From the NCBI RefSeq assembly GCF_040361275.1, contig NZ_APNH01000002.1, positions 248,001 to 312,000 on the forward strand: a DNA stretch of 64,000 bases. The letters are read 5' to 3'. Positions 47,149-63,128 of the stretch are shown here, piece by piece. A program made the position numbers and the translations under genes. Below the pieces are notes generated by a model. The model ran no database searches. It was not told where the DNA came from and saw nothing but the letters and a program-made list of their open reading frames with translations. The number at the start of each line of letters is the position of its first letter. Position 1 is the first letter of the stretch. Origin of the DNA: Salinisphaera sp. T31B1. GTDB taxonomy: Bacteria > Pseudomonadota > Gammaproteobacteria > Nevskiales > Salinisphaeraceae.

Positions 47149-47549
47149 ATCTGTAGCTCAGATCATTTCTTTCGTTGTTTCGACCGCCCCTGGATCGACG
47201 GATATCACCGGCATCGCCGACTGAATGCCTAGCAGCGGGATTGGTCTGGTGACAGGTATGCATGGTCCCGGGCAGCGACCGGTACTACCGCTCACGTCAA
47301 TGGATCGCGAGTGTTCGCCCCCAGCAGAATGTGTTGTGGTGCGGTGGTAGACAACCGCGTTCGCGCTCAGCAGCCCGACCTGGGGTTTTTACCGGCTTGT
47401 GAAGATTGGCCGGCCGTTGAGTCCCGGCTTGACGGCCATTGGAATCGCAGGTGACGCGCGTCTGCAACTGACGCATAATCATCCAATACGACGGGTGGCG
47501 CCAGGCACTGGGTGCCCCGTCACGTGCCATGGTGTTGGGGGACTCGGGC
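47149..47549. other. Leader region of the exopolysaccharide operon
   Basis: About 400 bases between the AT-rich island and the Wza-like gene. No gene is supported. A GGCAC-TGG-GTGCC hairpin occurs at about 47503-47515. The long leader would allow transcript-level control, but I do not recognise a known riboswitch. Confidence 0.4.
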
Positions 47550-48539
47550 ATGATGATTCGCGCTTTACTCATGGTCGCGGTATTGACGGTGGGTTTGACC
47601 GGTTGTGCGCATTCGCCGGCGCCGAGCACTTCTTCGGCTCCGGTCGAGACCCCTACGATGACCATGCCGCGCGCCTCCGACCGGCCGGCGGGAGCCCGGG
47701 TTACCGCGCGCTCGCAGCCGATCGCCGCATCGAGATCGGAAACACCTGCGGTATCGAACAACCCCGCCGTCGCTGCTTCACTTGCTGATAGCTCTTCAGA
47801 GTCCGACGCGGCGCGTGGGATTTCGCTGGGCAGTGGCGATGTAATCGAATTCCGCATGTTCGGACAGCCCGACATGACGACTACGGGCTACATATCACCC
47901 GACGGCGATCTGTCGTTGCCCTTGATCGATCAGGTTCATGTCGGCGGCCTGACGCCCAACCAGGCGCAAAAGACGATCGCCGAAGCGTATCGCCGCGGCG
48001 GTTATTTCGCGAACCCCCAGGTCAGCATCACCATCACCGAATATCGCAGCCGTCAGATTTCCGTGCTGGGCGAAGTCAGGCGTCCAGGGCGGTATCCGAT
48101 GAAAAGCCGGACCGATCTGCTGGATGCCATTGCCGGAGCCGAGGGTATGACACCCCAGGCCTCGCGGGACGTGATCGTCATCCGGCGTGCCGACGGTGAC
48201 ACTGGCACCCAGCGTTACACGCTGAACATCGACGACCTGGTATCCGGCCGCGCCAGCACGGATGATTTCACGCTTGCCGGTGGTGATACCGTTTTCGTTC
48301 CGGAAGCGCCGTTGTTCTATATCTATGGCGAGGTCCAGCGGCCGGACGCCTACGCGCTTCGTCCCGGCATGACCCTGATCCAGGCGATTTCGACCGGCGG
48401 AGGCCTGACCGAACGGGGCTCGAATTCTCGTATTGTCATTCATCGGGATATCGACGGCCAGCCGCGAACGATCGACCCACAGCCCGATACCGTGGTCGAG
48501 CCGCGCGACACGATCTTCGTCAAGGAGCGCATCTTTTGA
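47550..48539 (+). CDS. epsE: Polysaccharide export lipoprotein (Wza/EpsE type)
   Basis: 329 residues from ATG 47550 (MMIRALLMVAVLTVGLTGC), with a lipobox at LTGC (C19). After a Ser/Pro/Ala-rich linker (about 20-90) comes the polysaccharide biosynthesis/export domain, ISLGSGDVIEFRMFGQPDMTTTGYISPDGDLSLPLIDQVHVGG, then two SLBB domains, RQISVLGEVRRPGRYPM and LFYIYGEVQRPDAYAL. It forms the outer-membrane polysaccharide channel. It is the first gene of the large operon and overlaps the next by four bases. The SLBB plus PES layout matches the methanolan EpsE group. Confidence 0.93.
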   Translation: MMIRALLMVAVLTVGLTGCAHSPAPSTSSAPVETPTMTMPRASDRPAGARVTARSQPIAASRSETPAVSNNPAVAASLADSSSESDAARGISLGSGDVIEFRMFGQPDMTTTGYISPDGDLSLPLIDQVHVGGLTPNQAQKTIAEAYRRGGYFANPQVSITITEYRSRQISVLGEVRRPGRYPMKSRTDLLDAIAGAEGMTPQASRDVIVIRRADGDTGTQRYTLNIDDLVSGRASTDDFTLAGGDTVFVPEAPLFYIYGEVQRPDAYALRPGMTLIQAISTGGGLTERGSNSRIVIHRDIDGQPRTIDPQPDTVVEPRDTIFVKERIF

Positions 48540-49987
48540 ATCGTCGTTCCGATCGCGTCCCCCTGCCCTTGATCCCCACGGCCCGGCTGCCGGCCACGCT
48601 CGGCCAGATTTGGCGTGCGCTGCGCGCGCGCTGGCGTGTGGTCGCCGCCGTCACTGGGTGCTTCGTCGTGCTGGCGACCGTGGCGATTCTACTGCTGCCG
48701 GATACCTATACGGCCCGCGTCGCGCTCATCATCGATTTCCCGGGCGACGATCCGGTCACCGGCCAGCTTTACCCGTCGAACCTGGCTGAAAGCTATAAGG
48801 CGACGCAGGTCGATCTGCTCACCAGCTATAAGGTACGTCTGGCCACTGTCAAGGCACTCGGTCTCGACCAGGATAGCGATGCCAAAGCGCGTTTCGCCGA
48901 GCAGGCCGGCTCCGGTGCCACACTCGACGAGTGGCTGGCACAGCAGATCGGCCGCCATACCAGCGTCGAGGCTGGCGCCACCAGCCAACTGCTTGCCTTG
49001 GGCTATACCGACAAGAACGCCGAACGCAGCGCAACGATCGCCAATGCGCTGGTACGGCAGTATATCGACGCGGCCACCGATATGGCGCTGGAACCGGCGC
49101 AGGCCCGCCAGGCCCGTTACAGCGCTTTTCTCGATCAGCTCAGCCAGCGCGTAGACAAAGCGCAGGACCAGCTGACACGCATGCGCCAGTCTCTCGACGT
49201 GATCGCCGGTGGTGCCAACAACGAGATCGACACACAGCGGCTGGAAGACCTCGGGCTGAAGCTCAATCAGGCAGAAGCCGAACAGCAGGCGGCGCGTGCC
49301 AAGGTGGATCAGGTGCAAGCGCTCAAGTCGCAGGCTCAACCGTTGACTGCACAGGCCGATATTCTCAGTAGTGCCTACGTCCAGGAGCTCAAGGGCCGGT
49401 TGCTGGCCATGCAATCCGACTATGCCCAGCAGCGTCACGCACTCGGGCCCAATCATCCCCGTATTCAGTCCCTGGAAGCGGAGATGGCGACCGTACGCAG
49501 CCGGCTGCGGGACGAGATCGATGCCTATGTCGAGTCAAACCGGAGTCAGGCCGAGATGGCCACAAAACGCGAAGCGGCGCTGCGATCGACCTTCGAACGC
49601 GAACGCGCGGCGGTGATCGATCAGCAGGACAAGCGCGATCGGGTCGCAAAATACGAACGTGACCTGGCCGGCGCACGGCAGGTCTACGAAGGCGCTCTCC
49701 GGGAATACGATCAGGTCCTCGGCGGCAGCGAAATGCAGCGACAGAATATTTCCGTGGTCAGCTGGGCAAACCCGCCCCGTCACCCCACCGGCCTGGGCGC
49801 AAAAGCAAAACTGATCGTGGCGTTGCTGTTCGGTTTGATGGCCGGCACGCTGGCCGCCTTGCTCATGGAGTTGTTTGACCGTCGCGTGCGCGGCGACGAA
49901 GACGTCACCCGTGAGCTAGATCTGCCGCTGCTGGGCATCCTCCCGCCCTCAGCGAGCGGCGTCAGCCGTCGCCACGCGGAGTCCTGA
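48536..49987 (+). CDS. epsF: Polysaccharide chain-length determinant (EpsF/Wzz type)
   Basis: 483 residues, inner membrane. TM1 is at about 34-54 (VVAAVTGCFVVLATVAILLL), a large periplasmic coiled-coil region (about 190-420) with PNHPRIQSLEAEM follows, and TM2 is at about 440-462 before a short cytoplasmic end. The last part PPRHPTGLGAKAKLIV resembles the Wzz/GNVR motif. The start is TTG at 48536 with AAGGAG eight bases upstream, overlapping epsE. It sets chain length and connects the export channel to the cytoplasmic ATPase EpsG. Confidence 0.9.
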   Translation: MNRRSDRVPLPLIPTARLPATLGQIWRALRARWRVVAAVTGCFVVLATVAILLLPDTYTARVALIIDFPGDDPVTGQLYPSNLAESYKATQVDLLTSYKVRLATVKALGLDQDSDAKARFAEQAGSGATLDEWLAQQIGRHTSVEAGATSQLLALGYTDKNAERSATIANALVRQYIDAATDMALEPAQARQARYSAFLDQLSQRVDKAQDQLTRMRQSLDVIAGGANNEIDTQRLEDLGLKLNQAEAEQQAARAKVDQVQALKSQAQPLTAQADILSSAYVQELKGRLLAMQSDYAQQRHALGPNHPRIQSLEAEMATVRSRLRDEIDAYVESNRSQAEMATKREAALRSTFERERAAVIDQQDKRDRVAKYERDLAGARQVYEGALREYDQVLGGSEMQRQNISVVSWANPPRHPTGLGAKAKLIVALLFGLMAGTLAALLMELFDRRVRGDEDVTRELDLPLLGILPPSASGVSRRHAES

Positions 49988-49989
49988 AC

Positions 49990-50670
49990 ATGGCCGACAG
50001 CGGTATCTTCAACGGACAGGAGATCGTCCGAGTCGGCCATATCGATCCAAGTGTGGCCGTGATACGCGATCCGGCGGGATCCTTTGCAGAGCATCTGCGC
50101 ACTATCGGGATGCGACTGCTCGTCGGCCCCGGAGCCGAGGCGGCCCGTGCACTGGCCGTGGTCAGCCCGAGCCACGGCGATGGCCGAAGCACCCTGGCGG
50201 CAAACCTGGCCGTGGTCTTTGCGCAAGCGGGGCGTCGTACCGTGCTCATCGATGCCGACCTGCGCCGGCCGTTCCAGCATCGGCTGTTCGGATGCGATCC
50301 GAAGCCGGGGTTCGCCGGGTTCGACGATCGCATCGACGAGCGTCCGCTTGCCCGCCCCGTGGACGACGTACCGGGGCTGTACCTCATCACGGCGGGCCGT
50401 TCGACTGACGCCGAGTTCGACCCCGCGGCGCTCGCCCCGGCGCGTTTTGCCCGGCTGTTGTCGCTGCTGACCGGGCAGGTCGACCAGGTGGTGATCGACA
50501 CCCCGCCGGGTCTGCATTATGCCGATGGCCCGGGGGTCGCAGCTCAGACCGGCGCGGCGCTCATGGTCGTCCGATGCGGTCATACCGGCATCGCCCGTGC
50601 CCGTCGGCTGGCCGATGAAGTCCAGGCCATGGGTGCCACGGTGCTCGGGACGGTGCTCAACCATGGGTGA
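49990..50670 (+). CDS. epsG: EpsG-like CpsD/CapB-family ATPase (tyrosine-kinase-like)
   Basis: 226 residues of the BY-kinase family. The Walker A loop is in SPSHGDGRST, followed by LIDADLRRP (Walker A') and VVIDTPPG (Walker B). Unlike typical bacterial tyrosine kinases it lacks a C-terminal Tyr cluster, ending at TVLGTVLNHG. Phosphorylation may use another site, or the protein works only as an ATPase controlling export with EpsF. It starts 2 bases after epsF ends. Confidence 0.87.
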   Translation: MADSGIFNGQEIVRVGHIDPSVAVIRDPAGSFAEHLRTIGMRLLVGPGAEAARALAVVSPSHGDGRSTLAANLAVVFAQAGRRTVLIDADLRRPFQHRLFGCDPKPGFAGFDDRIDERPLARPVDDVPGLYLITAGRSTDAEFDPAALAPARFARLLSLLTGQVDQVVIDTPPGLHYADGPGVAAQTGAALMVVRCGHTGIARARRLADEVQAMGATVLGTVLNHG

Positions 50671-50736: not shown

Positions 50737-52065
50737 ATGAACATGCACCCGGCAGAAGGCCACGACCGGCGCTTCGCCGCAACGCTCGCCATCCTGTTGC
50801 TGTTGGCGCTTTTTTTCGCCGTCCTGCCGGAGGGACTGAGCTGGCAAACCGGGGAGGAAGTCGCGGCACGGGAAGGCTCCGCGCTGCGGCGATTGCAATG
50901 GTTGCCACTATTCGCCGCCTCCGCGCTGCTGATCTGGGCCCGTCGTGAAGTGGCGTATGCGTTGTTGCGTTTCGTCAATCCCTTTCTGCTGGGCTTCATT
51001 GCCTGGGCACTGCTGAGCATGACGTGGTCGGGCTATCCCGGCGTCACGCTGCGCAAGGGCGTTCTGCTGGTCGGCAGCGTTTCGATCGCTGCGTCGTTTC
51101 AGGTTGCCGCTTGGGATGCGAACCGGCTGCGTCGTCTGTTGAGACTCGGAATAACAACACTCCTGATCGCCTCGCTGGTCGCCGTGTTCGTTGCGCCATC
51201 GATCGCGCGCGTGTCGGCGTATAACGATGCCTGGGTGGGCGTCACCCAAAGCAAGAATCATCTCGGTCTGCTCGCGGGTTTCGGCAGCCTTTTGTGGCTC
51301 CACGCGCTCGCGGTCGGCGACGGGCCACCGCTGCGTGCGCTCGTCGCCACGGCCTTCTGTCTCGGCATGCTGCTGATGTCGCAGTCGGCGACTTCGCTCG
51401 GCTGCACGCTCGCGCTCGTTCCGGCCACGTGGCTTATGCTGCGTCCGCCGATCGCGCTCGGCCACAGCCTGTTCGCTGCGCTGCTCGCGCTGCTACTGGT
51501 TGGAGCATGCAGCGCGTTCATTGTGCTGATTCTTTTCGGTGTGCCGACTTGGCAGGATTTCGTCCGCCCGGTCGCTGATCTGCTGGGCCGCGACATTACG
51601 CTCACCGGGCGCTTGCAGATATGGACGCTGACGGTCGCCGAGATCGTCAAGCATCCCTGGCTGGGCACCGGCTACGGCGCGTTCTGGCTCGGCGCGGGCG
51701 GGCCGGCCCCGTGGCTGACGCAGAACCTGTACGGCATCCTGTGGCAGGCGCATGATGGCTATCTGGATGTGCTCAACGAGACCGGTCTGATCGGTATGGC
51801 CCTGGTACTCGGGTTCATTGGCGTTCATCTGCGCCAGATCGGCCTGCTGGCATCCCACGATCGTGGTAACGCTGTTCTGCACGCAGTGTTTTTGGCGTTT
51901 TTCCTGCTGAGCAATATCGCCGAATCGAGCCTGTTCCGTCCCATCCATTTCATGTTCTTCCTGTCGATCGTGATGTCGCTGAGTCTCAGCCGCGCGGTCG
52001 CCGATCTCGCCGTGTCGCGGCCGCAATGGTCCACGGCCGGCGCCGAACGAGGCGTCCATCGATGA
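50737..52065 (+). CDS. O-antigen ligase/polymerase-like membrane protein (Wzy type)
   Basis: 442 residues and about 12 transmembrane helices. The O-antigen ligase family region is GRLQIWTLTVAEIVKHPWLGTGYGAFW, followed by the periplasmic loop with AHDGYLDVLNETGLIG, a site typical for WaaL/Wzy proteins. It probably polymerises the exopolysaccharide repeat unit at the periplasmic face. It follows epsG after a 66-base gap and overlaps the next gene by ATGA. Confidence 0.88.
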   Translation: MNMHPAEGHDRRFAATLAILLLLALFFAVLPEGLSWQTGEEVAAREGSALRRLQWLPLFAASALLIWARREVAYALLRFVNPFLLGFIAWALLSMTWSGYPGVTLRKGVLLVGSVSIAASFQVAAWDANRLRRLLRLGITTLLIASLVAVFVAPSIARVSAYNDAWVGVTQSKNHLGLLAGFGSLLWLHALAVGDGPPLRALVATAFCLGMLLMSQSATSLGCTLALVPATWLMLRPPIALGHSLFAALLALLLVGACSAFIVLILFGVPTWQDFVRPVADLLGRDITLTGRLQIWTLTVAEIVKHPWLGTGYGAFWLGAGGPAPWLTQNLYGILWQAHDGYLDVLNETGLIGMALVLGFIGVHLRQIGLLASHDRGNAVLHAVFLAFFLLSNIAESSLFRPIHFMFFLSIVMSLSLSRAVADLAVSRPQWSTAGAERGVHR

Positions 52066-53498
52066 CACGCCGGATCTGTCGAAGTGTTCTAGCCCTGCTC
52101 GGCGTGCTCGCGATGACGGCGCACGCCGCTCCTGCGGCGGCGGTGCTACGCGCCGAAACGGTCCTGCCGGTGCGCCCGGTCAGCGCAGCCAACGCCAGCG
52201 TCTTCGCCACACCGCTGGCCTATCGGGACGACGTGATCTATACCGTCAACGTCGAAACCGGCACTGCCCCGGTGCCGCTGCACGGGCTCGGCCTGCGAAC
52301 GGTCATCCGGCGTGGTGAGCGGGACGCGACCGGACGGTGGCGCTGGCGCAGCCATGTGCTGGATACGACCACCCCGAACGATCCCTACCACACCCAGGCC
52401 TCGGTCGGGCTCGACGAGCGGGGATACGTACATGTCGCCTATGGAATGCACTACGTCCCATGGCAATACGCAGTCTCGACCGAGCCCGGCATGATCGAAT
52501 CGTTCATCTTCCGCGGCCAGCGCATGACGCGCGACCAGCGATATGCCTCCCAGCACCGTGACGTGGAATTTCCCGGCCCCGGCACGGCCGCCATTCCGGG
52601 CATGCAGGTCACCTATCCGGCGTTCTTCAACGACCGCCACGGCGCACTCTACGTCACCTATCGCTACGCCCTGTTTCCCGCGCGCACCTGGCAGGAACGG
52701 GTATTCGCCGGCGCGATCGCCCGCTACGACGTCGATACGCGGCAATGGCGCCAGCTCGGCGGCGCGGTGCGTATCGATCGCGACGACGCGGCGCTGCCGC
52801 CCGGCCAGAACGAGACATTCACTCGACCGTTCGCGGGTGAACCGGGATGGTGGGCCTATCAGATTCGGCTGGCGTTCGACCCTAACAATGGCATGCACGC
52901 ATCGTGGCTGTGGCGTATCGGCAACTCGGGGCCGGACAACACTCGGCCCAGTTATGCCTACGCCCCGGCCGGCAGCGAGCGGTTCTTTCGCAGCGACGGC
53001 AGCGCCTACACGCTTCCCATACGCCTGAACGACGCCGAGAGAATCGCCCCGGACACCCTGCCCGCCCTGTCGCCGCGCGGCTTCTACAATCCGGCCCGCA
53101 TGACCGTGACAGCAGGCGGCGTGCCCGTGGTGACGGTGCAAGCGCTGAACGGCCGCCGCTACGCGATCCGCCGCACCGCCGACGGCTGGGCCGAGCCCGA
53201 GCGCGTGCCCCGCGACGGCTGGCAGATCCGTTTCGACGACGAGGGCCACGAATGGGCGTTCGCCAGCGGCCTGACTGTGCTGCGGCGGAATGTCGATCTC
53301 GACGGCGTGCCGGCCTCGGACTGGCAGACCGTGTTCGACGGCCGCAAGACCCCCGCGACCCGTTTGTGCAATCCGCGTGTTGTCGAAGCGGCGGATGAGC
53401 GCGCCTTTTATGTCCATGCCAATCAGCTGGACGCCGGTGGCCGCTGTCGCGACGACCGGATCGCGATCCTGGCATTGCACCGTAGCGATAGCGAATGA
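52062..53498 (+). CDS. Secreted BNR_4 repeat protein, possible polysaccharide lyase
   Basis: 478 residues from ATG 52062, overlapping the polymerase stop (ATGA). A signal peptide is at 1-26 (RSVLALLGVLAMTAHAAPAAA). The rest matches the seven-bladed propeller BNR_4 family: YHTQASVGLDERGYVHVAYGMHYVPWQY, FFNDRHGALYVTYRY and RLAFDPNNGMHASWLW. BNR_4 proteins include ulvan and related polysaccharide lyases (PL24/PL25), and others of unknown use. Within a polymer-export operon it may cut or trim the exopolysaccharide. The catalytic residues of known lyases cannot be firmly mapped, so the reaction is open. Its stop overlaps the next gene. Confidence 0.72.
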   Translation: MTRRICRSVLALLGVLAMTAHAAPAAAVLRAETVLPVRPVSAANASVFATPLAYRDDVIYTVNVETGTAPVPLHGLGLRTVIRRGERDATGRWRWRSHVLDTTTPNDPYHTQASVGLDERGYVHVAYGMHYVPWQYAVSTEPGMIESFIFRGQRMTRDQRYASQHRDVEFPGPGTAAIPGMQVTYPAFFNDRHGALYVTYRYALFPARTWQERVFAGAIARYDVDTRQWRQLGGAVRIDRDDAALPPGQNETFTRPFAGEPGWWAYQIRLAFDPNNGMHASWLWRIGNSGPDNTRPSYAYAPAGSERFFRSDGSAYTLPIRLNDAERIAPDTLPALSPRGFYNPARMTVTAGGVPVVTVQALNGRRYAIRRTADGWAEPERVPRDGWQIRFDDEGHEWAFASGLTVLRRNVDLDGVPASDWQTVFDGRKTPATRLCNPRVVEAADERAFYVHANQLDAGGRCRDDRIAILALHRSDSE

Positions 53499-55357
53499 GC
53501 CGGGGGTTCGACGCAGAGGCGCACACCCTCATGCTGCGGCTGTGCCGCGGCATGAGCGCTCATCTGGAGCCGGTCGAGGACGATGCCCTGGCCCTGCACT
53601 GCCCCGCCTGCGACGTGCACCACATACGCTCGATCGAAGCGGTGGTCGCATTCGCCGCGGCGTACCGGGCCACCGGTGACCGCCACTGGGCCAACGCTGC
53701 CCGCGGGCTGGGGCGTTGGGCGATCGCGCGCCAGAACGTCGATGGCGCCTGGATCGAATCCGAAGCCAATCCGTGGCGAGGGATCTCCATCTTCGTGCTG
53801 CTCGCTCTGGCCACCGCCTATCGTCTGCTGCAGACCGCAGAGGAGCCGATACTTAACAACGACGAGGCACCGCGCTGGCGTGACGCCATCAAACGGGGCG
53901 TGTCATGGGCCGAGACCATACGCCCGACCGGTCATATCGGCCAGGCCGCCGCGGCCCTGTGCCGGCGTATTCGCTGGCCCGGTGCGGCGCGCAACGGCCA
54001 GTTCTGGAACACCAACTATCTCGCGACGCTGGCCCTGATGTTTCATGAATGTGGGCGCGCGCTGGGCCGCGATTTCGATGACCGGTCTCGGCGTTATCTC
54101 GAATTCACCCTGTCGCGTATCGGCGTCGACGGGCTGATCGTTGGTGAGGTCAACGAGCCTGCGCCAGGCTGGGCCAAACCGTTTCGCCGAGTCGACGCGA
54201 TCGACCCGGGCTACAACCTCGATATGACGCTCGGGGTGCTCGCCCTGTATGCCCATCATCGCGGGGACGATGGACTGCTCGAACGCGTGGCGACCAGCGC
54301 GGCCGCTCACCTGCCGCTGCTTTATGCCGATGGCAGTGTCGACAACGGCATGGGTGCGCGCGGTTACAAGGCCGCCTGCTGGGGCAGTCAGACCGCCCAC
54401 GGCCTGCAGATGCTCGCCGCCGGACTCGCCTCGGTCGACGCGCGTTTTCTACGTGCGGGTCAGCGCAACATGACGCTGTTGCAGCGCTGTCTGCACGATG
54501 ATCTGCTCCAGCGCGCGCCATGTGGCGGCGACGGGCCGCCCCCCTGCCTTTATGCGAGCTTCGCGCGGGCGGCCAATCTCGCGCTGGCACTCGCAGTCAG
54601 CAGCCCGCGGGCGTCCGCCGCGGATACGCCGTTGCCATGCGAAACGACCGCGCCGAGTCGGTGGCAACTCGCCTCGCTCGACACCACGGTGATGCGCGGC
54701 GGCGCCTGGATGATGACGCTCAGCGGCCAGTCGCGCGATTCGTCGCGCCTGCCCTATCGTTTCATCACCCCCGCCACCGGGGCGACGCTAACCCGACTGC
54801 ACCACGACCGTTTCGGCCCGGTACAGGCGGCGGGCTTCGCCGTCTATCAGCGGGTGGAAGCCGAGCACATGCCAGCGCAGGCTCAGGCCAGCGCAGCCGG
54901 CCTCGTCAATGCAAGTGGCGACTTGCGATCGATACACGACAGGCGTGTGCTCATCGAGCCGCTCGGACCCAGCGCTGTGCACGCACGGGGGCGTCTGCGC
55001 ACACGGCGTATCTGGCAGCGCGGTGCGGCCTACGAGATGGACTATGCGATCGAACACGACCGAGTGGTCAAGCGGCTGCAACTCATGCCGAATCGTTGCG
55101 ACCATGTATTGATCGAACCGCTTGTGGCGATGCCCGACGCACGATTCGCGCAGCCCGATGCACATCACGTGATCGTCGAACGTGCCGGCCTTCGACTGCA
55201 GATCACGCTGCATATCGACGCGGGCACCTGCCGGATGCAGCTCGCGGAACCGATCCAGCCCTATTCGCCGCCACTGCCGATCCGGCCGCTGCACCTGGCC
55301 TTGGGCGCCCACGGCCGACAGGCGCTGACCCTGATATTCACCGTTACCGACTGCTGA
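53495..55357 (+). CDS. Large alpha/alpha-toroid plus beta-sandwich-like protein
   Basis: 620 residues, with no clear signal peptide. Residues about 20-370 show repeated helix pairs with Trp, His and Asn (ARNGQFWNTNYLATLALMFHE, DPGYNLDMTLGVLALYAHH), similar to an (alpha/alpha) toroid of polysaccharide lyases and glycoside hydrolases; about 390-615 looks like a beta-sandwich with RRIWQRGAAYEMDYAIEHD, as in heparinase II/III-type proteins. I do not recognise the exact family. It is translated with the BNR_4 gene (ATGA overlap). Possible roles: cytoplasmic or periplasmic processing of the polymer. The lack of a signal peptide is unusual for a lyase. Confidence 0.6.
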   Translation: MSRGFDAEAHTLMLRLCRGMSAHLEPVEDDALALHCPACDVHHIRSIEAVVAFAAAYRATGDRHWANAARGLGRWAIARQNVDGAWIESEANPWRGISIFVLLALATAYRLLQTAEEPILNNDEAPRWRDAIKRGVSWAETIRPTGHIGQAAAALCRRIRWPGAARNGQFWNTNYLATLALMFHECGRALGRDFDDRSRRYLEFTLSRIGVDGLIVGEVNEPAPGWAKPFRRVDAIDPGYNLDMTLGVLALYAHHRGDDGLLERVATSAAAHLPLLYADGSVDNGMGARGYKAACWGSQTAHGLQMLAAGLASVDARFLRAGQRNMTLLQRCLHDDLLQRAPCGGDGPPPCLYASFARAANLALALAVSSPRASAADTPLPCETTAPSRWQLASLDTTVMRGGAWMMTLSGQSRDSSRLPYRFITPATGATLTRLHHDRFGPVQAAGFAVYQRVEAEHMPAQAQASAAGLVNASGDLRSIHDRRVLIEPLGPSAVHARGRLRTRRIWQRGAAYEMDYAIEHDRVVKRLQLMPNRCDHVLIEPLVAMPDARFAQPDAHHVIVERAGLRLQITLHIDAGTCRMQLAEPIQPYSPPLPIRPLHLALGAHGRQALTLIFTVTDC

Positions 55358-55360
55358 TCG

Positions 55361-56476
55361 ATGCGTATTCTCGTCCACGCCCCCATGCACTACGAGTACA
55401 GCACCGAGCTGGCCAGCGCGCTGGCCGCCCGCTCGGACGTGTCAGCGGTGTTGCTCGTGGTCTGCGCCGATTTCCCCTACGAGCAACAATGCGACTGCGC
55501 TATCGAGCGTCTGTACCCGGACCAGTCGCGCGTGCCGGGCAAGATGGCGAAGCTGCGCGCCCATTTCGGCGCGCTTGCACGCCTGATCGCCCTGCTGCGT
55601 CGATGGCGACCCGATATCCTGCACATCCAGGCGCTTCGCCACACCGATATCGACTGGCCGCTGCTGCTCGCCGCACGCCTGCTGTCGGTACCGATCGTCT
55701 GGACCGCGCACAACGCGCTGCCGCACGAGCGGCGCGCCCATCATCGCCTGCTCTACCGCACCATCTACGGCGGATCAGACCGGTTGATCGTGCATACCCG
55801 GCATACACAGGCCGAACTCGAGCGCTTTGGCGTGCCGGGCGAACGCATGGCACGCGTGCCGCACGGCAATCTGCGTCGCATGGTCGGCCGGCAGTGGCCG
55901 AAAGCGCAGGCCCGATGTGATCTCGGGCTCGAGACGGGTGACCAGACACTGGTACTGCTGTTTTTCGGCCGTGTCCGGCCCTACAAAGGCCTCGACCTGC
56001 TGCTGGCGGCCATGGCGCGGCTCGAGCAGCGCGACATCGTGCTGCTGGTCGCCGGCGAGGACCTGTTCGACGAATGGAGCACGGTCGTGGCACCGGCCAA
56101 CGTGCGCATGGATCTTCGACGGATCGACAACGACAGCGCAGACCGCTACTTCAGTGCCGCCGATCTGGTGGTTCTGCCCTATCGGCGCATCGATCAGAGC
56201 GGCGTGCTGATGCTGGCCATGTCGCACGGCGTACCCGTCATGGCGACCGCGGTGGGCGGACTGGCGGAGGTGATCGAACACGGTCGCACCGGCTTTCTGC
56301 TGCCGCCCGAGGACATCGAAGCACTGACTTCGGCAATCGGCCGGATCGACGACGATCGGGATGGCCTGGCTCGGGTGCGACAAGCGACCCGGGATGCGGT
56401 CGATAACGAATACGGATGGGCGACGATCGCCGCTCAGACAATGGCGGTGTACGGCGCGGTGGCACGAAAACGCTGA
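55361..56476 (+). CDS. Glycosyltransferase family 4
   Basis: 371 residues with the GT-B fold. The N-terminal half binds acceptor (HAPMHYEYSTELASALA, HIQALRHTDIDWP); the C-terminal half has LVLLFFGRVRPYKGLDLLLAAMARL and the EX7E-type donor site around DLVVLPYRRIDQSGVLMLAMSHGVPVMATAVGGLAEVIEHGRTGFLLPPE. It is a cytoplasmic enzyme that adds a sugar to the lipid-linked repeat unit. It starts 3 bases after the toroid gene. The sugar cannot be assigned. Confidence 0.92.
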   Translation: MRILVHAPMHYEYSTELASALAARSDVSAVLLVVCADFPYEQQCDCAIERLYPDQSRVPGKMAKLRAHFGALARLIALLRRWRPDILHIQALRHTDIDWPLLLAARLLSVPIVWTAHNALPHERRAHHRLLYRTIYGGSDRLIVHTRHTQAELERFGVPGERMARVPHGNLRRMVGRQWPKAQARCDLGLETGDQTLVLLFFGRVRPYKGLDLLLAAMARLEQRDIVLLVAGEDLFDEWSTVVAPANVRMDLRRIDNDSADRYFSAADLVVLPYRRIDQSGVLMLAMSHGVPVMATAVGGLAEVIEHGRTGFLLPPEDIEALTSAIGRIDDDRDGLARVRQATRDAVDNEYGWATIAAQTMAVYGAVARKR

Positions 56477-56578: not shown

Positions 56579-58453
56579 ATGTGCGGTTTCACAGGATGGG
56601 TCTCGACCGGCGCTACCGGCGCGCGGCGCGCCGAGTTATGCGCGATGCAGGCCACCCTCGCGCATCGGGGGCCGGACCAGTCGGGCGAGCATCTGTTCGA
56701 GACCGCCGACGGTGGCGAGGTCGCGCTCGCTCATTGCCGCCTATCGATCATCGACCTGGACGGCGGTCGCCAGCCGATGTTCGATGCCGATTACGTCCTG
56801 GTCTACAACGGCGAAATCTACAACTACCAGGCGTTGCGCAAAGAACTGGTGGCCGGCGGATGCCGCTTCGACGATGCCTCGGATACCGCAGTCGTGCTTC
56901 AAGCCTACAAGCAGTGGGGCATCGATTGCCTGTCGCGGTTTCGCGGCATGTTCGCCTTCGCGCTCTGGGATGCAGCCGCCGGCCGGATGATCTTTGCCCG
57001 CGATCCGTTCGGAAAAAAGCCGCTGTTCTTCCACCGACAGGGTTCGCGCCTGGTGTTCGGCTCCGAAATCAAGGCCGTGCTGGCATTTCCGGGCGTGCGG
57101 CGATGCGCCGACCCGACGGTCCTAAGCGACTATTTCCTCTATCGCTATGTGCCACAGCCGCACACCTTGTTCGACGGCATCGAGAAACTGCCGGCCGGCA
57201 GCTATGCAATCTGGGAACGCGGCGAGCTCACCACGCATCGCTACTTCACCCCGCCGGACGCGCAGCCGCGCGCCACGGCCCCAGCAGATCGCCGAATGCC
57301 GGTCGACGGCTTTCTCGACCGGCTGACCGATGCGGTCGCCATACGCATGATAAGCGACGTGCCCTACGGCGCATTCCTGTCGGGCGGACTGGATTCGTCC
57401 GCGATCGTGGCGCTGATGGCGCGCCAGTCCACCCAGCCGATTCGCACGTTCTCGGTCGGCTTCGCCGAGGCTGACTACAGCGAGCTCGACCATGCCCGCA
57501 CCGTGGCCGAACACATTGGCGCAGATCATCATGAACTGCGGCTGTCGCCTGACGATCTCATGGACCACCTGCCCGCGCTCACGCGTTTCCGCGATGCGCC
57601 TGTGGCCGAAACCGCCGATATTCCGATCTACCTGCTGTCGCTGGAAGCCGGGCGCCACGTCAAGATGGTGCTCACCGGCGAAGGCAGCGACGAACTGCTT
57701 GCCGGGTATCCCAAGCATGCCTTCGAGCGTTATGCGCCGGCCTACGGCGCGCTACCGGATCCGGTACGTCACAAACTGATCGAACCGACGATCGCATCGC
57801 TGCCCTACCGTTACCGGCGTATCAAGACCGTCGCGGCCACGCTGGGGCTGGCCGACCCCGACGAACGGCTGCCGCGCTGGTTCGGCGCGCTGGCCCGCGC
57901 CGAGCGCGAGCGCCTGCTCGCGCCGCAATCGGTCGACCGTGCCCCGGTTGACGCGCGCTGGGCGCGCGTTGCCGGTAACAGTGCGCTGCGCCATGCGCTG
58001 TACTTCGACCAGGCCAGCTGGCTGCCCGACAACCTGCTCGAGCGCGGCGATCGCATGACCATGGCGGCCTCGATCGAGGCGCGCATGCCGTTTCTCGACG
58101 AAGAACTGGCCGCGTACGTATCGGGCCTGCCGGATCGATGGCGACTGCGTCGGCATACCGGCAAGTACCTGCTACGCGAGGCTATGCGCCGATTGCTACC
58201 GGCCGCGATCATCGACCGACCCAAAGTCGGCTTTCGCGTACCGGTCAATGAATGGTTCCGCGGGCCGATGCAGGATTATCTACGCGAGCATTTGATCGCA
58301 GACGCCACCCGTACCCGTGACTACTACCGGCCGGGCGCGGTCGCGCGGGTGCTCGACGAACACGCGGCCGGCCGTCAAAACCACGAAAAGCTCATCTGGA
58401 CGATGCTCAACCTCGAACTCTGGCATCGCCACTGTCTGGAAATGCGCCCATGA
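56579..58453 (+). CDS. asnB: Asparagine synthase-like amidotransferase of the exopolysaccharide operon
   Basis: 624 residues from ATG 56579, preceded by GGGGGAG; this start places Cys2 of MCGFTGWV as glutaminase nucleophile. The N-terminal class II glutaminase domain (about 1-200) and the C-terminal ATP-pyrophosphatase synthetase domain with FLSGGLDSSAIVAL are both complete. Asparagine synthetases in exopolysaccharide operons are thought to amidate sugar acids (for example a uronic acid carboxyl) or to supply asparagine. That matches GT genes on both sides and an overlap with the next gene. The true acceptor is unknown. Confidence 0.87.
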   Translation: MCGFTGWVSTGATGARRAELCAMQATLAHRGPDQSGEHLFETADGGEVALAHCRLSIIDLDGGRQPMFDADYVLVYNGEIYNYQALRKELVAGGCRFDDASDTAVVLQAYKQWGIDCLSRFRGMFAFALWDAAAGRMIFARDPFGKKPLFFHRQGSRLVFGSEIKAVLAFPGVRRCADPTVLSDYFLYRYVPQPHTLFDGIEKLPAGSYAIWERGELTTHRYFTPPDAQPRATAPADRRMPVDGFLDRLTDAVAIRMISDVPYGAFLSGGLDSSAIVALMARQSTQPIRTFSVGFAEADYSELDHARTVAEHIGADHHELRLSPDDLMDHLPALTRFRDAPVAETADIPIYLLSLEAGRHVKMVLTGEGSDELLAGYPKHAFERYAPAYGALPDPVRHKLIEPTIASLPYRYRRIKTVAATLGLADPDERLPRWFGALARAERERLLAPQSVDRAPVDARWARVAGNSALRHALYFDQASWLPDNLLERGDRMTMAASIEARMPFLDEELAAYVSGLPDRWRLRRHTGKYLLREAMRRLLPAAIIDRPKVGFRVPVNEWFRGPMQDYLREHLIADATRTRDYYRPGAVARVLDEHAAGRQNHEKLIWTMLNLELWHRHCLEMRP

Positions 58454-59637
58454 GTCACACCACCGGCGTGCTGATCATCGTCGAGAATCTGCCGCTGCCG
58501 TTTGACCGGCGTGTCTGGCAGGAAGCCTGTGCCCTGCGCGACGCCGGCTATCGCGTCTCGATCGTGTGCCCACGCGCGCCGGGCTACGACGAGCCACGCG
58601 TGGACATCGACGAGATCGCAATCTATCGTCATCCGCTGCCCGTGGAGGCCGATTCGGCGGCCGGCTACGCGCTGGAATACGGCGCCGCGCTGTTCTGGCA
58701 GCTCGTACTGTCGCTGCGGATTGCCTGCACGCGCGGCTTTCGGGTCATCCACGCCTGCAACCCGCCGGATACCATCTTCATCGTCGCGGCTTTCTGGCGA
58801 TTGATGGGCAAGCGGTTCCTGTTCGACCATCACGACCTCTGCCCCGAGCTCTACGAGGCTAAATTCGGTCGGCGCGATCGTTTCTATCGACTGATGCGCA
58901 CGCTCGAGCGCTGGACGTTCCGTATGGCGCGGGTGTCGCTGGCCACCAACGACTCCTTTCGGCGTATCGCGATCGAACGCGGCGGCATGGCACCGGAAGA
59001 CGTGTTCGTGGTGCGTAGCGGCCCGAATCTCGATCGTATCCGGGCCATGCCCGCCGATAAAGCACTGCGCCGCGGCCGTCGGCACCTCGTGGGCTATGTC
59101 GGGGTGATGGGACGCCAGGAGGGTCTGGACACCCTGCTCGAAATCATCGCCGACATCGTGCACCGGCGTGGGCGCGACGACATCCAGTTCTGCCTCGTCG
59201 GGTTCGGCACCGAACTCGAGACACTGCGCCGGCAGGCAATCGATCTCGATATCGCAGCGCATGTGGATTTTCCCGGCCGGCTGGAGGGCGAGGCGCTGAT
59301 GACGGTGCTCAGCACTGCCGACGTATGCGTCAGTCCCGACCCGCTCAATGCCATGAACGACCACTCGACCATGAACAAGATCATGGAGTACATGGCCCTG
59401 GGCAAGCCGAGCGTGCAATTCGATCTTACCGAAGGCCGATTTTCGGCCCGAGAGGCGTCCCTGTATGCGCGACCGGGCGATACCGCCGACTTCGCCGACA
59501 AGCTCTTGCAACTCATCGACGACCCCGACCTGCGGCACGCCATGGGGGCCTACGGCCAACAGCGCGTGCGCGACACGCTCGCCTGGCGCTTTGAGGTGCC
59601 CAAGCTGCTGGCGGCCTACGAACGGGTGCTCGAATGA
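58450..59637 (+). CDS. Glycosyltransferase family 4
   Basis: 395 residues, GT-B fold, no membrane segments predicted apart from a hydrophobic helix near 80-95. N-terminal IVENLPLPFDRRVWQEACALRDAGYRVSIVCP is a common opening in GT4 proteins of polysaccharide operons. The donor site includes GYVGVMGRQEGLDTLLE and DVCVSPDPLNAMNDHSTMNKIMEYMALGKPSVQFDL. It overlaps the amidotransferase gene by ATGA and the GT2 gene by ATGA, so the three are strictly coupled. Confidence 0.92.
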   Translation: MSHTTGVLIIVENLPLPFDRRVWQEACALRDAGYRVSIVCPRAPGYDEPRVDIDEIAIYRHPLPVEADSAAGYALEYGAALFWQLVLSLRIACTRGFRVIHACNPPDTIFIVAAFWRLMGKRFLFDHHDLCPELYEAKFGRRDRFYRLMRTLERWTFRMARVSLATNDSFRRIAIERGGMAPEDVFVVRSGPNLDRIRAMPADKALRRGRRHLVGYVGVMGRQEGLDTLLEIIADIVHRRGRDDIQFCLVGFGTELETLRRQAIDLDIAAHVDFPGRLEGEALMTVLSTADVCVSPDPLNAMNDHSTMNKIMEYMALGKPSVQFDLTEGRFSAREASLYARPGDTADFADKLLQLIDDPDLRHAMGAYGQQRVRDTLAWRFEVPKLLAAYERVLE

Positions 59638-60572
59638 CGACAACCCCACCACCGAACATCGAGCCACCCCGGACCGAGGCGAGCCATTCGTTGCAGACAG
59701 CCCCCATTCTGGTGATCTCGCCGGTGCGCGACGAGGCGCGCTATCTGGAAGCCACCATCAAATCCATGTGTGGGCAGACCATACGCCCGGCAGAATGGGT
59801 GCTCGTCGACGATGGTTCCACCGATGGCACCGGCGAGATCATCGATCGCCATGCCGCTCGCGAGCCCTTCATGCGCCGCGTCGCCAAGCCCGACCGCGGC
59901 TTCCGGCAGGTCGGCAGCGGCGTGATCGAGGCGTTCCGGTATGGCCTGTCGCAGGCGCGGCGCACGGACTATCGCTATATCGTCAAGCTCGACGGCGATA
60001 TCACCTTCGGCCCGCGTTATATCGAGCGCATGCTCGCGGCATTCGAGGCCGATCCGGCACTGGCTGCCGTATCGGGGCGCGTGTTCCGGCCTGAAGGCGA
60101 ACGCCGCGTCGAGGAACGCCTTGCCCCGGACATGGTGACCGGGCAGTTCAAGTTCTACCGGCGCCGTGCCTTCGAGGCGATCGGCGGCTTCGAGCAGACA
60201 CTGCAGTGGGACGGTATCGATATCCATCGCTGTCGCATGAACGGCTGGCGTACCGCCAATATCGACGATCCAGACGCCGTGATCATGCATCACCGGCTGA
60301 TGGGCTCCTCCCAGCGCAGTATCGTCGACGGCCGGTTGCGCTGGGGGCGTGGCATCCACTACATCGGCTATCACCCGTTGTATGCGCTGGCATCGGGCGT
60401 ATTCCGCATGCGTGAAAAGCCCTATGTCATCGGAGGTCTGCTGATCGTGGCCGGCTACGGTTGGTCGGCGTTGCGCCGTCGCCCCCGTTATCCCGACACG
60501 GCATTCCGGCACAGCCTCAGGCGCTGGCAGCTGGCACGGCTCGGCGCGATGCTGCGCCGGGGCAACCGATGA
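59634..60572 (+). CDS. Glycosyltransferase family 2
   Basis: 312 residues, GT-A fold. SPVRDEARYLEATIKSM and VLVDDGSTDGT form the nucleotide-binding part; KLDGDI is the DXD-type metal site; GTQWDGIDIHR-like sequence (LQWDGIDIHRCR) lies at the acceptor side. A hydrophobic segment near 270-285 may bind the membrane. It adds a sugar from a nucleotide donor to the repeat unit. It overlaps both neighbours by four bases. Confidence 0.9.
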   Translation: MTTTPPPNIEPPRTEASHSLQTAPILVISPVRDEARYLEATIKSMCGQTIRPAEWVLVDDGSTDGTGEIIDRHAAREPFMRRVAKPDRGFRQVGSGVIEAFRYGLSQARRTDYRYIVKLDGDITFGPRYIERMLAAFEADPALAAVSGRVFRPEGERRVEERLAPDMVTGQFKFYRRRAFEAIGGFEQTLQWDGIDIHRCRMNGWRTANIDDPDAVIMHHRLMGSSQRSIVDGRLRWGRGIHYIGYHPLYALASGVFRMREKPYVIGGLLIVAGYGWSALRRRPRYPDTAFRHSLRRWQLARLGAMLRRGNR

Positions 60573-61966
60573 TTGCGCCCGGCCGCAACGGCAGCATATT
60601 CGCACCGGTACTTCACGGTGCGGTATTCGCTTCGGTCGGGGTGGGCAATCTGTACCTGCTTGCGCGTTTGTTCGGTCAGGTCTTCGATGACAGCTATCAA
60701 CTGCTGGCCTTCGCCGTTTTCGTGGTGCTGTTCACCTTTTTCGGGCGCTACAGCATGGTATGGCAGTGGAAGGTCGGGCGCAGCGGCTCGATCGGCACTC
60801 GAGTGCTGGTAAGCTGGCTGGTGCTGGCCGCAAGCCTCGTGTTCATCGGCTTTCTCACGCGCCAGACGCAGGATCTTCAGCGGCGCGTGATCCTCCTCTG
60901 GTTGGTCAGCACGCCGCTGTGGTTCATGGTGGCCCATCTGGGTGTACGGCGCCTGTTCCTGACCTTTTTCCCGAGCAGTCTCCGTTCGCGGTCCACGTTG
61001 ATCGTGTTTCTCAATCCGGCTTCGCATCGCTTGGCGCAGATGTTTGCGAACCTGGACACGCCACAGTTCCGCCTGGTCGGTTTCATAGAGGACCGCAACG
61101 GCGAACGCGCCATGCCGCCGCCGTCAGGCATGGAAATCGTCAGCGATACACAGAATCTGGCGAACTACGTCAATCAGCATCGTATCGAGGTCGTGTTCGT
61201 GGTGCTCCCGCTGGAGGGCGCCAGTCGAGCGATGCGGGTCGTCGAGCAGCTGGGCAATACCACTGCCTCGGTGTATTACGTGCCCGACTCCAATCTGTTT
61301 CAACTGGACTACATGCGCTTTTCGGAGGTCGGCGGTATTCCGGTCTTCACACTCACCGAAACCCCGTTCTTCGGCGCAGACGGGCTGCTCAAACGCCTGA
61401 TGGATATCGCATTTTCATCTGCGATCCTGATCACGATCGCGCCTTTTTGCCTGCTGGTCGCTCTAGCGGTGCGAATCAAGATGGGTTCGCCGATCATATT
61501 CACGCAGAAGCGTTACGGTCTCGACGGCCGCGAGATCAACGTTCACAAGTTCCGGACCATGACCGTGGCCGAGGACGGCGATGTCGTTGTGCAGGCCAGC
61601 CGCGATGACAAGCGCATTACCCCACTGGGCGCATTTCTTCGGCGCACCTCGATCGACGAGTGGCCGCAATTCTGGAACGTGCTCAAGGGGGATATGAGCC
61701 TGGTCGGCCCTCGACCGCACGCGGTGGCCCATAATGAGCAGTATCGCAGCCTAGTCGACCGTTACATGGTGCGGCACAAGGTCAAGCCCGGCCTGACTGG
61801 CCTCGCCCAGGTCAACGGCCTGCGCGGCGAGACCCGCGAGCTCGATGCCATGAAACGACGCGTCGAGCATGACCTCAAGTATATTCGCGACTGGTCGCCG
61901 GGCCTGGATCTGTCGATTCTCCTGCGCACGGCCTGGATCGTCTTCCGTGATCGATCCGCGTACTAA
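60569..61966 (+). CDS. epsB: Undecaprenyl-phosphate sugar phosphotransferase (WcaJ/EpsB type)
   Basis: 465 residues from ATG 60569 (MIAPGRNGS). Four N-terminal transmembrane helices, a CoA-binding-like middle domain (LIVFLNPASHRLAQMF...), a fifth membrane helix (KRLMDIAFSSAILITIAPFCLL) and the C-terminal bacterial sugar transferase domain with FTQKRYGLDGREINVHKFRTM and WPQFWNVLKGDMSLVGPRP. It begins repeat-unit synthesis by placing a sugar-1-phosphate, usually glucose or galactose, on undecaprenyl phosphate. It overlaps the GT2 gene by ATGA. That the initiating enzyme is late in the operon is common for this group. Confidence 0.94.
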   Translation: MIAPGRNGSIFAPVLHGAVFASVGVGNLYLLARLFGQVFDDSYQLLAFAVFVVLFTFFGRYSMVWQWKVGRSGSIGTRVLVSWLVLAASLVFIGFLTRQTQDLQRRVILLWLVSTPLWFMVAHLGVRRLFLTFFPSSLRSRSTLIVFLNPASHRLAQMFANLDTPQFRLVGFIEDRNGERAMPPPSGMEIVSDTQNLANYVNQHRIEVVFVVLPLEGASRAMRVVEQLGNTTASVYYVPDSNLFQLDYMRFSEVGGIPVFTLTETPFFGADGLLKRLMDIAFSSAILITIAPFCLLVALAVRIKMGSPIIFTQKRYGLDGREINVHKFRTMTVAEDGDVVVQASRDDKRITPLGAFLRRTSIDEWPQFWNVLKGDMSLVGPRPHAVAHNEQYRSLVDRYMVRHKVKPGLTGLAQVNGLRGETRELDAMKRRVEHDLKYIRDWSPGLDLSILLRTAWIVFRDRSAY

Positions 61967-63128
61967 GCCGGGCCGGTACTGGCTGGCCGCCGGTCTGCTG
62001 GCCGCCTCCCAGACGACTCTGGCCGGCGCGCTCGAAGTGCGGCCATACGTGGAATACGGCACCACCTACAACAACAATCTGCTGACGGTGCCCAATGCTC
62101 GCGCGCGCAGCGAAACCATCCGCAAGGCGTCGATCGGCACATTGGTCGACTGGCCGGTTTCGCGTCAGCGCCTGATTGCGTCCGGGCAAGTCAGCCGGTT
62201 TCGCTACCGTCGCTACGATCAGCTCGATCACAGCGAATACGAAGGCCGTGCGACCTGGGAGTTCCAGTTCGGCCATGCCGTATACGGCGCGCTGGGCTAC
62301 CGTCGCGAGCGTTATCTGGACGACTTCGATAATCGCCAGCGCGCGATCACGGACTTCATCGACGTCTCCGAGCCCACGCTCGAAACCTATGTCCAGGTCC
62401 ATCCCGACTACCGCATCCGAACGCTGGTCAGCCACCTGAGACTCGATCACAGCCTGGCGGAACAATCGCGCTTCGACCGCGAACAGACCCAGGCTCGCGT
62501 CGAACTGCAATATCAGGGCGTACCGGACTCGGTTTTCGGATTCGGCGGCGAAACCATCGACGGCCGCTTTCCCGGGCGCGTATCCACCGATCCGCTGTCA
62601 CCGACGTTTACCCAGAACAGCGTTTTTGCAACCTTCGACTGGGAATACAGCGGCATATCACGCATCCAAGGCCAGCTCGGTTATACCGAGCGCGACGCGG
62701 GCACGCGCGATGACCGCGACTTCGGCGGCATGACTGGCCGGCTGGCCTATATCCGCACCCTCTCGGCCAAGACGCATGTGACCCTCGAGCTGTCGCGCTT
62801 CATCTACTCGGTGGACGACGTCGACGCGAATTTCGTACGGGATACGGGCGGCCGGCTCGTGCTCGACTGGGACTACAGCCCGAAGCTGGCACTCAACGCA
62901 AGCCTTGGCCGTCGCGAACAGGTCTACCAGACACTGGGCGCCGATCTCGCACGTAGCGATACCGTGGACGAACTGGCCGCAGAGATGATCTATCGTCCGC
63001 TGCGCCAGTTTTCAGTCACCGCCACCGCAGCCTATACCCAGCGGGATTCGAACGTGGCCAGCGAAAACTACGACGCGGTGTCCGGCGGGCTGTCGTTCCG
63101 CTGGTCGCCGAATCCGGAGAACCGATGA
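61947..63128 (+). CDS. epsL: Outer-membrane beta-barrel protein of EpsL type
   Basis: 393 residues if read from GTG 61947, which overlaps the 3' end of epsB by 20 bases and gives a signal peptide (YWLAAGLLAASQTTLAGA). The mature protein alternates polar and aromatic residues in short strands (LEVRPYVEYGTTYNNNLL ... FSVTATAAYTQRDSN), with the last residues forming a barrel-type end. This is like the EpsL family from EPS operons associated with exosortase systems, a predicted outer-membrane barrel of unknown role. No exosortase gene is in this window. Confidence 0.8.
   Translation: MIDPRTKPGRYWLAAGLLAASQTTLAGALEVRPYVEYGTTYNNNLLTVPNARARSETIRKASIGTLVDWPVSRQRLIASGQVSRFRYRRYDQLDHSEYEGRATWEFQFGHAVYGALGYRRERYLDDFDNRQRAITDFIDVSEPTLETYVQVHPDYRIRTLVSHLRLDHSLAEQSRFDREQTQARVELQYQGVPDSVFGFGGETIDGRFPGRVSTDPLSPTFTQNSVFATFDWEYSGISRIQGQLGYTERDAGTRDDRDFGGMTGRLAYIRTLSAKTHVTLELSRFIYSVDDVDANFVRDTGGRLVLDWDYSPKLALNASLGRREQVYQTLGADLARSDTVDELAAEMIYRPLRQFSVTATAAYTQRDSNVASENYDAVSGGLSFRWSPNPENR

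Follow-up and report, generated by a model that had tools for sequence, protein, structure and literature searches.

The 64,000-nucleotide stretch of the Salinisphaera sp. T31B1 genome analysed here (the window) raises the question of what two large proteins resembling polysaccharide-active enzymes are doing inside an operon that builds a polysaccharide, and whether they act together. The genes around them, in the order EpsE, Wzc, CpsD, Wzy, P0001, P0002, GT4a, AsnB, GT4b, GT2, WcaJ, EpsL and Wzx (Table 1), constitute a Wzx/Wzy-type exopolysaccharide (EPS) biosynthesis operon, as the initial annotation had proposed. The two reading frames, P0001 and P0002, were confirmed at their annotated positions, together with the four-base ATGA overlaps that link Wzy to P0001 (52062-52065) and P0001 to P0002 (53495-53498), the former overlap being present in one relative genome (G003) as well. 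The Asn-synthase-type amidotransferase starts with MCGF, thus carrying a cysteine at position 2. A recent foreign origin of the P0002 and AsnB genes was considered on the basis of base composition and rejected, since their GC contents (0.671 and 0.652, respectively) are in line with the rest of the operon. Beyond Wzx, on the opposite strand, lies a gene for a hybrid PKS-aminotransferase-NRPS protein of more than 2300 aa, accompanied by two exosortase-A-associated-hydrolase-like genes (L053:3299-11975).

Table 1. Features of the EPS operon and their positions in the window.
Feature	Position	Strand	Remarks
EpsE export protein, Wzc-type co-polymerase, CpsD-type ATPase	47529..50670	+	Pfam and NCBIfam matches
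Wzy_C polymerase	50737..52065	+	ATGA overlap with P0001
P0001, BNR_4 beta-propeller	52062..53498	+	478 aa
P0002, putative distant PL37/P29_PDnc-type protein	53495..55357	+	620 aa
GT4a (GT4 glycosyltransferase)	55361..56476	+	between the P0002 and AsnB genes
Asn-synthase-type (AsnB/WbpS-like) amidotransferase	56579..58453	+	Asn_synthase 8e-110; TIGR01536 above cut-off
GT4b, GT2, WcaJ undecaprenyl-phosphate glucose phosphotransferase, EpsL outer-membrane barrel	58450..63128	+	Pfam and NCBIfam matches
Wzx flippase	~63190 to past the window end (64000)		operon end

In regard to P0001, its assignment as a BNR_4 propeller with lyase relatives holds. The protein matches PF15892 (BNR_4) at 3.4e-27 (95.9 bits, cut-off 27.3) and the NCBIfam BT3686 model weakly (5.5e-14, below cut-off), while a three-sequence profile searched against the PDB retrieved the GH145/PL42 structure 4irt (1.3e-21) and FoRham1 (7esl, 3.6e-11). 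The GH145 family is to be renamed PL42 (PMC8377490). FoRham1 relies on His85, His105, Tyr150 and Arg166 as its lyase residues, with an analogous set in the PL24/PL25 ulvan lyases (PMC8377490). According to the alignments, P0001 carries this quartet as H110, H130, Y185 and R201, with spacings of 20 (H110/H130) and 16 (Y185/R201) that are identical to those of FoRham1. The quartet is also kept in each of the three genus orthologues that are complete, in a Persicobacter BNR protein and in an Alteromonas one, whose gene neighbours encode sulfatases, one rhamnosidase and a GH88 protein, as in ulvan polysaccharide utilization loci (PULs). As for the posterior catalytic histidine of GH145 (His48 of BT3686), no His occurs between positions 50 and 72 of P0001, a region that aligned unreliably. 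The conservation of the quartet, together with the FoRham1 spacings, makes P0001 most likely a uronate lyase, predicted to be a periplasmic or secreted, uronate-specific polysaccharide lyase of the PL42/PL24/PL25-like kind. Alternatively, P0001 could be an inactive BNR_4 propeller serving as a polymer-binding lectin, in accordance with the finding that Bacteroides GH145/PL42 proteins holding the anterior quartet showed no lyase activity (PMC8377490); however, with all four lyase residues found in every complete orthologue and in the ulvan-PUL relatives, we consider this doubtful. The single-sequence AlphaFold model of P0001, with a pLDDT of 33, was unusable.

In comparison with the characterised PL42 enzymes FoRham1 and BT3686, which act on L-Rha-alpha-1,4-GlcA, P0001 shares the BNR_4 fold family and the quartet spacings but is encoded in a biosynthetic operon, and its substrate is probably not Rha-GlcA. 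The T31B1 genome contains no RmlC, so dTDP-L-rhamnose is probably not made, and a rhamnose-specific activity was rejected on this ground. With the PL24/PL25 ulvan lyases (LOR_107, PLSV_3936), P0001 has in common the seven-bladed propeller class and the His/Arg catalytic logic (PMC8377490), although the target of those enzymes is exogenous ulvan; no sequence match to them was detectable in the PDB search with the P0001 profile.

The second protein, P0002, gave no convincing family match in Pfam, NCBIfam or the PDB, and the initial annotation could not match it to a described family. It can nevertheless be placed. A tblastn search against plasmids returned one match, on plasmid 5 of Persicobacter sp. 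JZB09 (CP012863; 26.7% identity over 92%, 1e-30), which is full-length by alignment and reciprocal at 9.7e-33. The family in question is represented by P29_PDnc of Formosa agariphila (Cdf79930, WP_038530528.1; PL37; 622 aa), for which an alpha/alpha toroid followed by a beta-sandwich was obtained by homology modelling (PMC6168547). Its activity is disputed, having been described as that of an endolytic lyase (PMC6168547) and as that of a dehydratase acting on non-reducing-end GlcA/IdoA within the ulvan PUL (PMC8511951). Eight of its residues were mutated (D248, E254, E255, D269, D290, R300, K303 and Y306), of which D248, K303 and an arginine proved essential, while Y306F remained active; the arginine appears as R300 in one place and as R230 in two, and is apparently R300 (PMC8511951).

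The Persicobacter protein holds all eight of these residues at exactly the published spacing, and none of 10,000 shuffles exceeded six. The aligned positions of P0002 are D237, D243, M244, D258, D279, R289, K292 and C295. Thus D237, D258, D279, R289 and K292 are the counterparts of D248, D269, D290, R300 and K303 at exact spacing, with the three essential residues represented by D237, R289 and K292, whereas E254 is replaced by Asp, E255 by Met and Y306 by Cys. Many aromatic and polar positions around the D/R/K triad are conserved in the alignment as well. The score of five out of eight is unconvincing for P0002 alone, being equalled or exceeded in 54 of 10,000 shuffles, and the PL37 claim consequently rests on the alignment to the Persicobacter protein; membership was judged from the published residue spacing by way of this member. 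On these grounds P0002 is, at the level of sequence, a distant homologue of PL37/P29_PDnc, the ulvan-oligosaccharide lyase/dehydratase family. The earlier idea of lyase- or epimerase-like chemistry would agree with this homology and with the catalytic residues kept. A toroid plus beta-sandwich fold, also suggested before, fits the available evidence and is supported only indirectly, through a full-length homologue with the eight diagnostic residues of P29_PDnc and through the helical N-terminal half and strand-rich C-terminal part predicted in a single-sequence AlphaFold model that is otherwise useless (pLDDT 35).

Searches for further P0002-type proteins covered 100 related genomes, 369 genomes of Gammaproteobacteria and, with a two-row profile, 398 of Pseudomonadota, and recovered only the P0002 gene itself. 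Likewise, none were found in genome and viral contigs when either single proteins or the two aligned rows served as the query. Other matches were weak toroid-repeat hits or noise with E of 1e-4 or worse (e.g., YyaL-like, L016).

The Persicobacter relative (L024:14890-16815) begins with a twin-arginine-like leader and is surrounded by genes for a BNR_4 protein, sulfatases, two GH2 proteins and a sulfatase-GH78 fusion, a composition like that of the Formosa agariphila ulvan PUL, in which P36 is such a fusion (PMC8511951). The BNR_4 and toroid genes there belong to the same PUL without being adjacent. As a separate observation, plasmid 5 thereby reveals an unannotated ulvan-type PUL (L024:10959-27943) that includes a P29_PDnc-type gene.

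P0001 and P0002 also differ in their predicted export, as the initial annotation had noted. P0001 starts with MTRRICRSVLALLGVLAMTAHAAPAAA, judged by eye to be signal-peptide-like, while an in-frame stop (at 53489) lies two codons upstream of the P0002 start codon and leaves no room for a signal peptide. The two would therefore reside in different compartments, which makes the joint trimming system once envisaged for the exported polymer unlikely. Distribution within the genus points the same way. P0001 is found in five of 14 genomes and GT4b in those same five, P0001 accompanying the operon in each of them. Over the extent covered by the contigs of the four relatives, the operon order is unchanged, except that in all four the operon lacks the P0002 and AsnB genes without any remnant. 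In the three in which the junction was read at the sequence level, the P0001 gene abuts GT4a directly; in the fourth (G006), the P0001 gene is cut by a contig end, with its 3′ part adjoining GT4a. The BNR_4/toroid pair is thus not supported as a conserved coupled pair. The simplest reading is that P0002 and AsnB were gained in T31B1, with loss in the relatives as a less simple alternative; the closest AsnB homologues in the genus are about 39% identical and located outside the EPS operon. In addition, GT4a shows clearly greater divergence between genomes than its neighbours GT4b and GT2, with no more than 46-48% identity to the corresponding protein of the relatives, compared to 69-70% for GT4b. 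We take this divergence to be consistent with an altered sugar at that position.

No GH88/GH105 (PF07470) is present in the genome. In the breakdown of ulvan and chondroitin, enzymes of these families use what the dehydratases produce (PMC8511951, PMC12269599), and the known catabolic dehydratase-GH105 route is accordingly absent. Both nucleotide-sugar dehydrogenases of the genome lie outside the EPS operon. A second polysaccharide locus (L054-L056; G000:C2:764001-812000) holds a nucleotide-sugar dehydrogenase and an XrtA/PEP-CTERM-type amidotransferase (938 bits, above cut-off), as well as a gene for a 380-aa toroid protein beside an ATP-grasp-like gene, a pair also seen in a further genome of the genus (L003). 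This toroid protein (C2:798803) was rejected as a P0002 paralogue, being a generic squalene-cyclase/pectate-lyase-like repeat protein.

Taken as a whole, the best explanation, to which we give somewhat less than an even chance, is that the operon encodes a periplasmic EPS uronate lyase, P0001, and a separate cytoplasmic tailoring enzyme of the PL37 type, P0002. For P0001, the conservation with or without P0002 makes a periplasmic EPS lyase the best explanation. Lyases of the AlgL type carry a signal peptide and are encoded together with polymer biosynthesis machinery. P0001 is a candidate of the same kind, differing from them in fold and polymer, and would most likely be an AlgL-like enzyme that clears polymer or sets its length, as a standard part of operons of this type. 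In the periplasm it would catalyse beta-elimination at a 4-O-linked uronic acid of the operon's own polymer, with His110 as acid/base aided by His130 and Tyr185, and Arg201 neutralising the carboxylate.

P0002 would be a separate, strain-specific and non-exported addition. Since the operon builds lipid-linked repeat units and P0002 is predicted to stay inside the cell, a tailoring enzyme acting before export is its best explanation, and the lipid-linked repeat unit would be its probable substrate. Asp237 as base could abstract H5 of a uronosyl residue, with Arg289 as neutraliser and Lys292 as acid, after which either water would be eliminated across C4-C5 or C5 epimerised, so that the polymer displays a changed sugar; the AsnB-type amidotransferase could amidate a uronate. 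A more specific proposal casts P0002 as a biosynthetic uronate 4,5-dehydratase installing 4-deoxy-hex-4-enuronic acid, or else an epimerised and possibly AsnB-amidated uronate, on the lipid-linked repeat prior to export; we offer it tentatively, as it is unlikely to be right in this exact form. In relation to P29_PDnc, P0002 agrees in length, in predicted helix/strand arrangement and in the spacing of five residues (Asp as base, Arg, Lys as acid and another two Asp), but departs in the three substituted positions, in sharing about 27% identity with the Persicobacter member, and in lacking a signal peptide, a PUL and a GH105 partner. The GH154/BcGDH glucuronate dehydratases are also a uronate dehydratase family (PMC12269599), reported to be unrelated in sequence to P29_PDnc.

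Several other roles for P0002 have to be weighed against tailoring before export. Lyases and C5-epimerases have the H5-abstraction step in common, and P0002 could thus be a uronate C5-epimerase of a lipid-linked oligosaccharide or of the polymer, performing the proton abstraction of a dehydratase with no loss of water. Retention of the base, neutraliser and acid residues while Y306 is Cys would suit such a role, yet nothing points specifically to epimerisation and the characterised family member eliminates, which leaves this reading unlikely. It is also conceivable that P0002 serves cytoplasmic salvage, in which fragments released by P0001 are imported and their non-reducing-end uronate is dehydrated/hydrated as in ulvan catabolism. 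In its favour, the P29_PDnc family has a catabolic role wherever it has been characterised (PMC8511951), P0001 resembles a lyase and the Persicobacter relative lies within a degradation PUL; on the other hand, the missing GH88/GH105, the biosynthetic nature of the operon and the presence of P0001 without P0002 in the other genus genomes make salvage decidedly improbable. Finally, the low identity to the single relative found and the loss of E255 and Y306 could indicate a non-catalytic or divergent protein, either with a binding or scaffold function or belonging to another toroid class with unrelated chemistry. The exact positional retention of the triad essential in P29, and the conserved aromatic and polar surroundings, argue against this, and we regard it as just as improbable as salvage.

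What would be new in P0002, as predicted from its sequence, is a PL37-type protein devoid of a signal peptide and encoded in a biosynthetic operon, which suggests that an ulvan-digesting enzyme type has been recruited for polymer making. Along with it, a PL42-type propeller, a candidate lyase, is placed inside an EPS operon. Some Klebsiella K-/O-antigens are listed as containing unsaturated 4-deoxy-hex-4-enuronic acid (PMC7541508), and P0002 represents a concrete candidate for a biosynthetic enzyme of such a residue. The occurrence of the same operon with and without P0002 in one genus provides a clean natural comparison and, if the proposal is true, P0002 would show a family of ulvan degradation turned to the making of a polymer.
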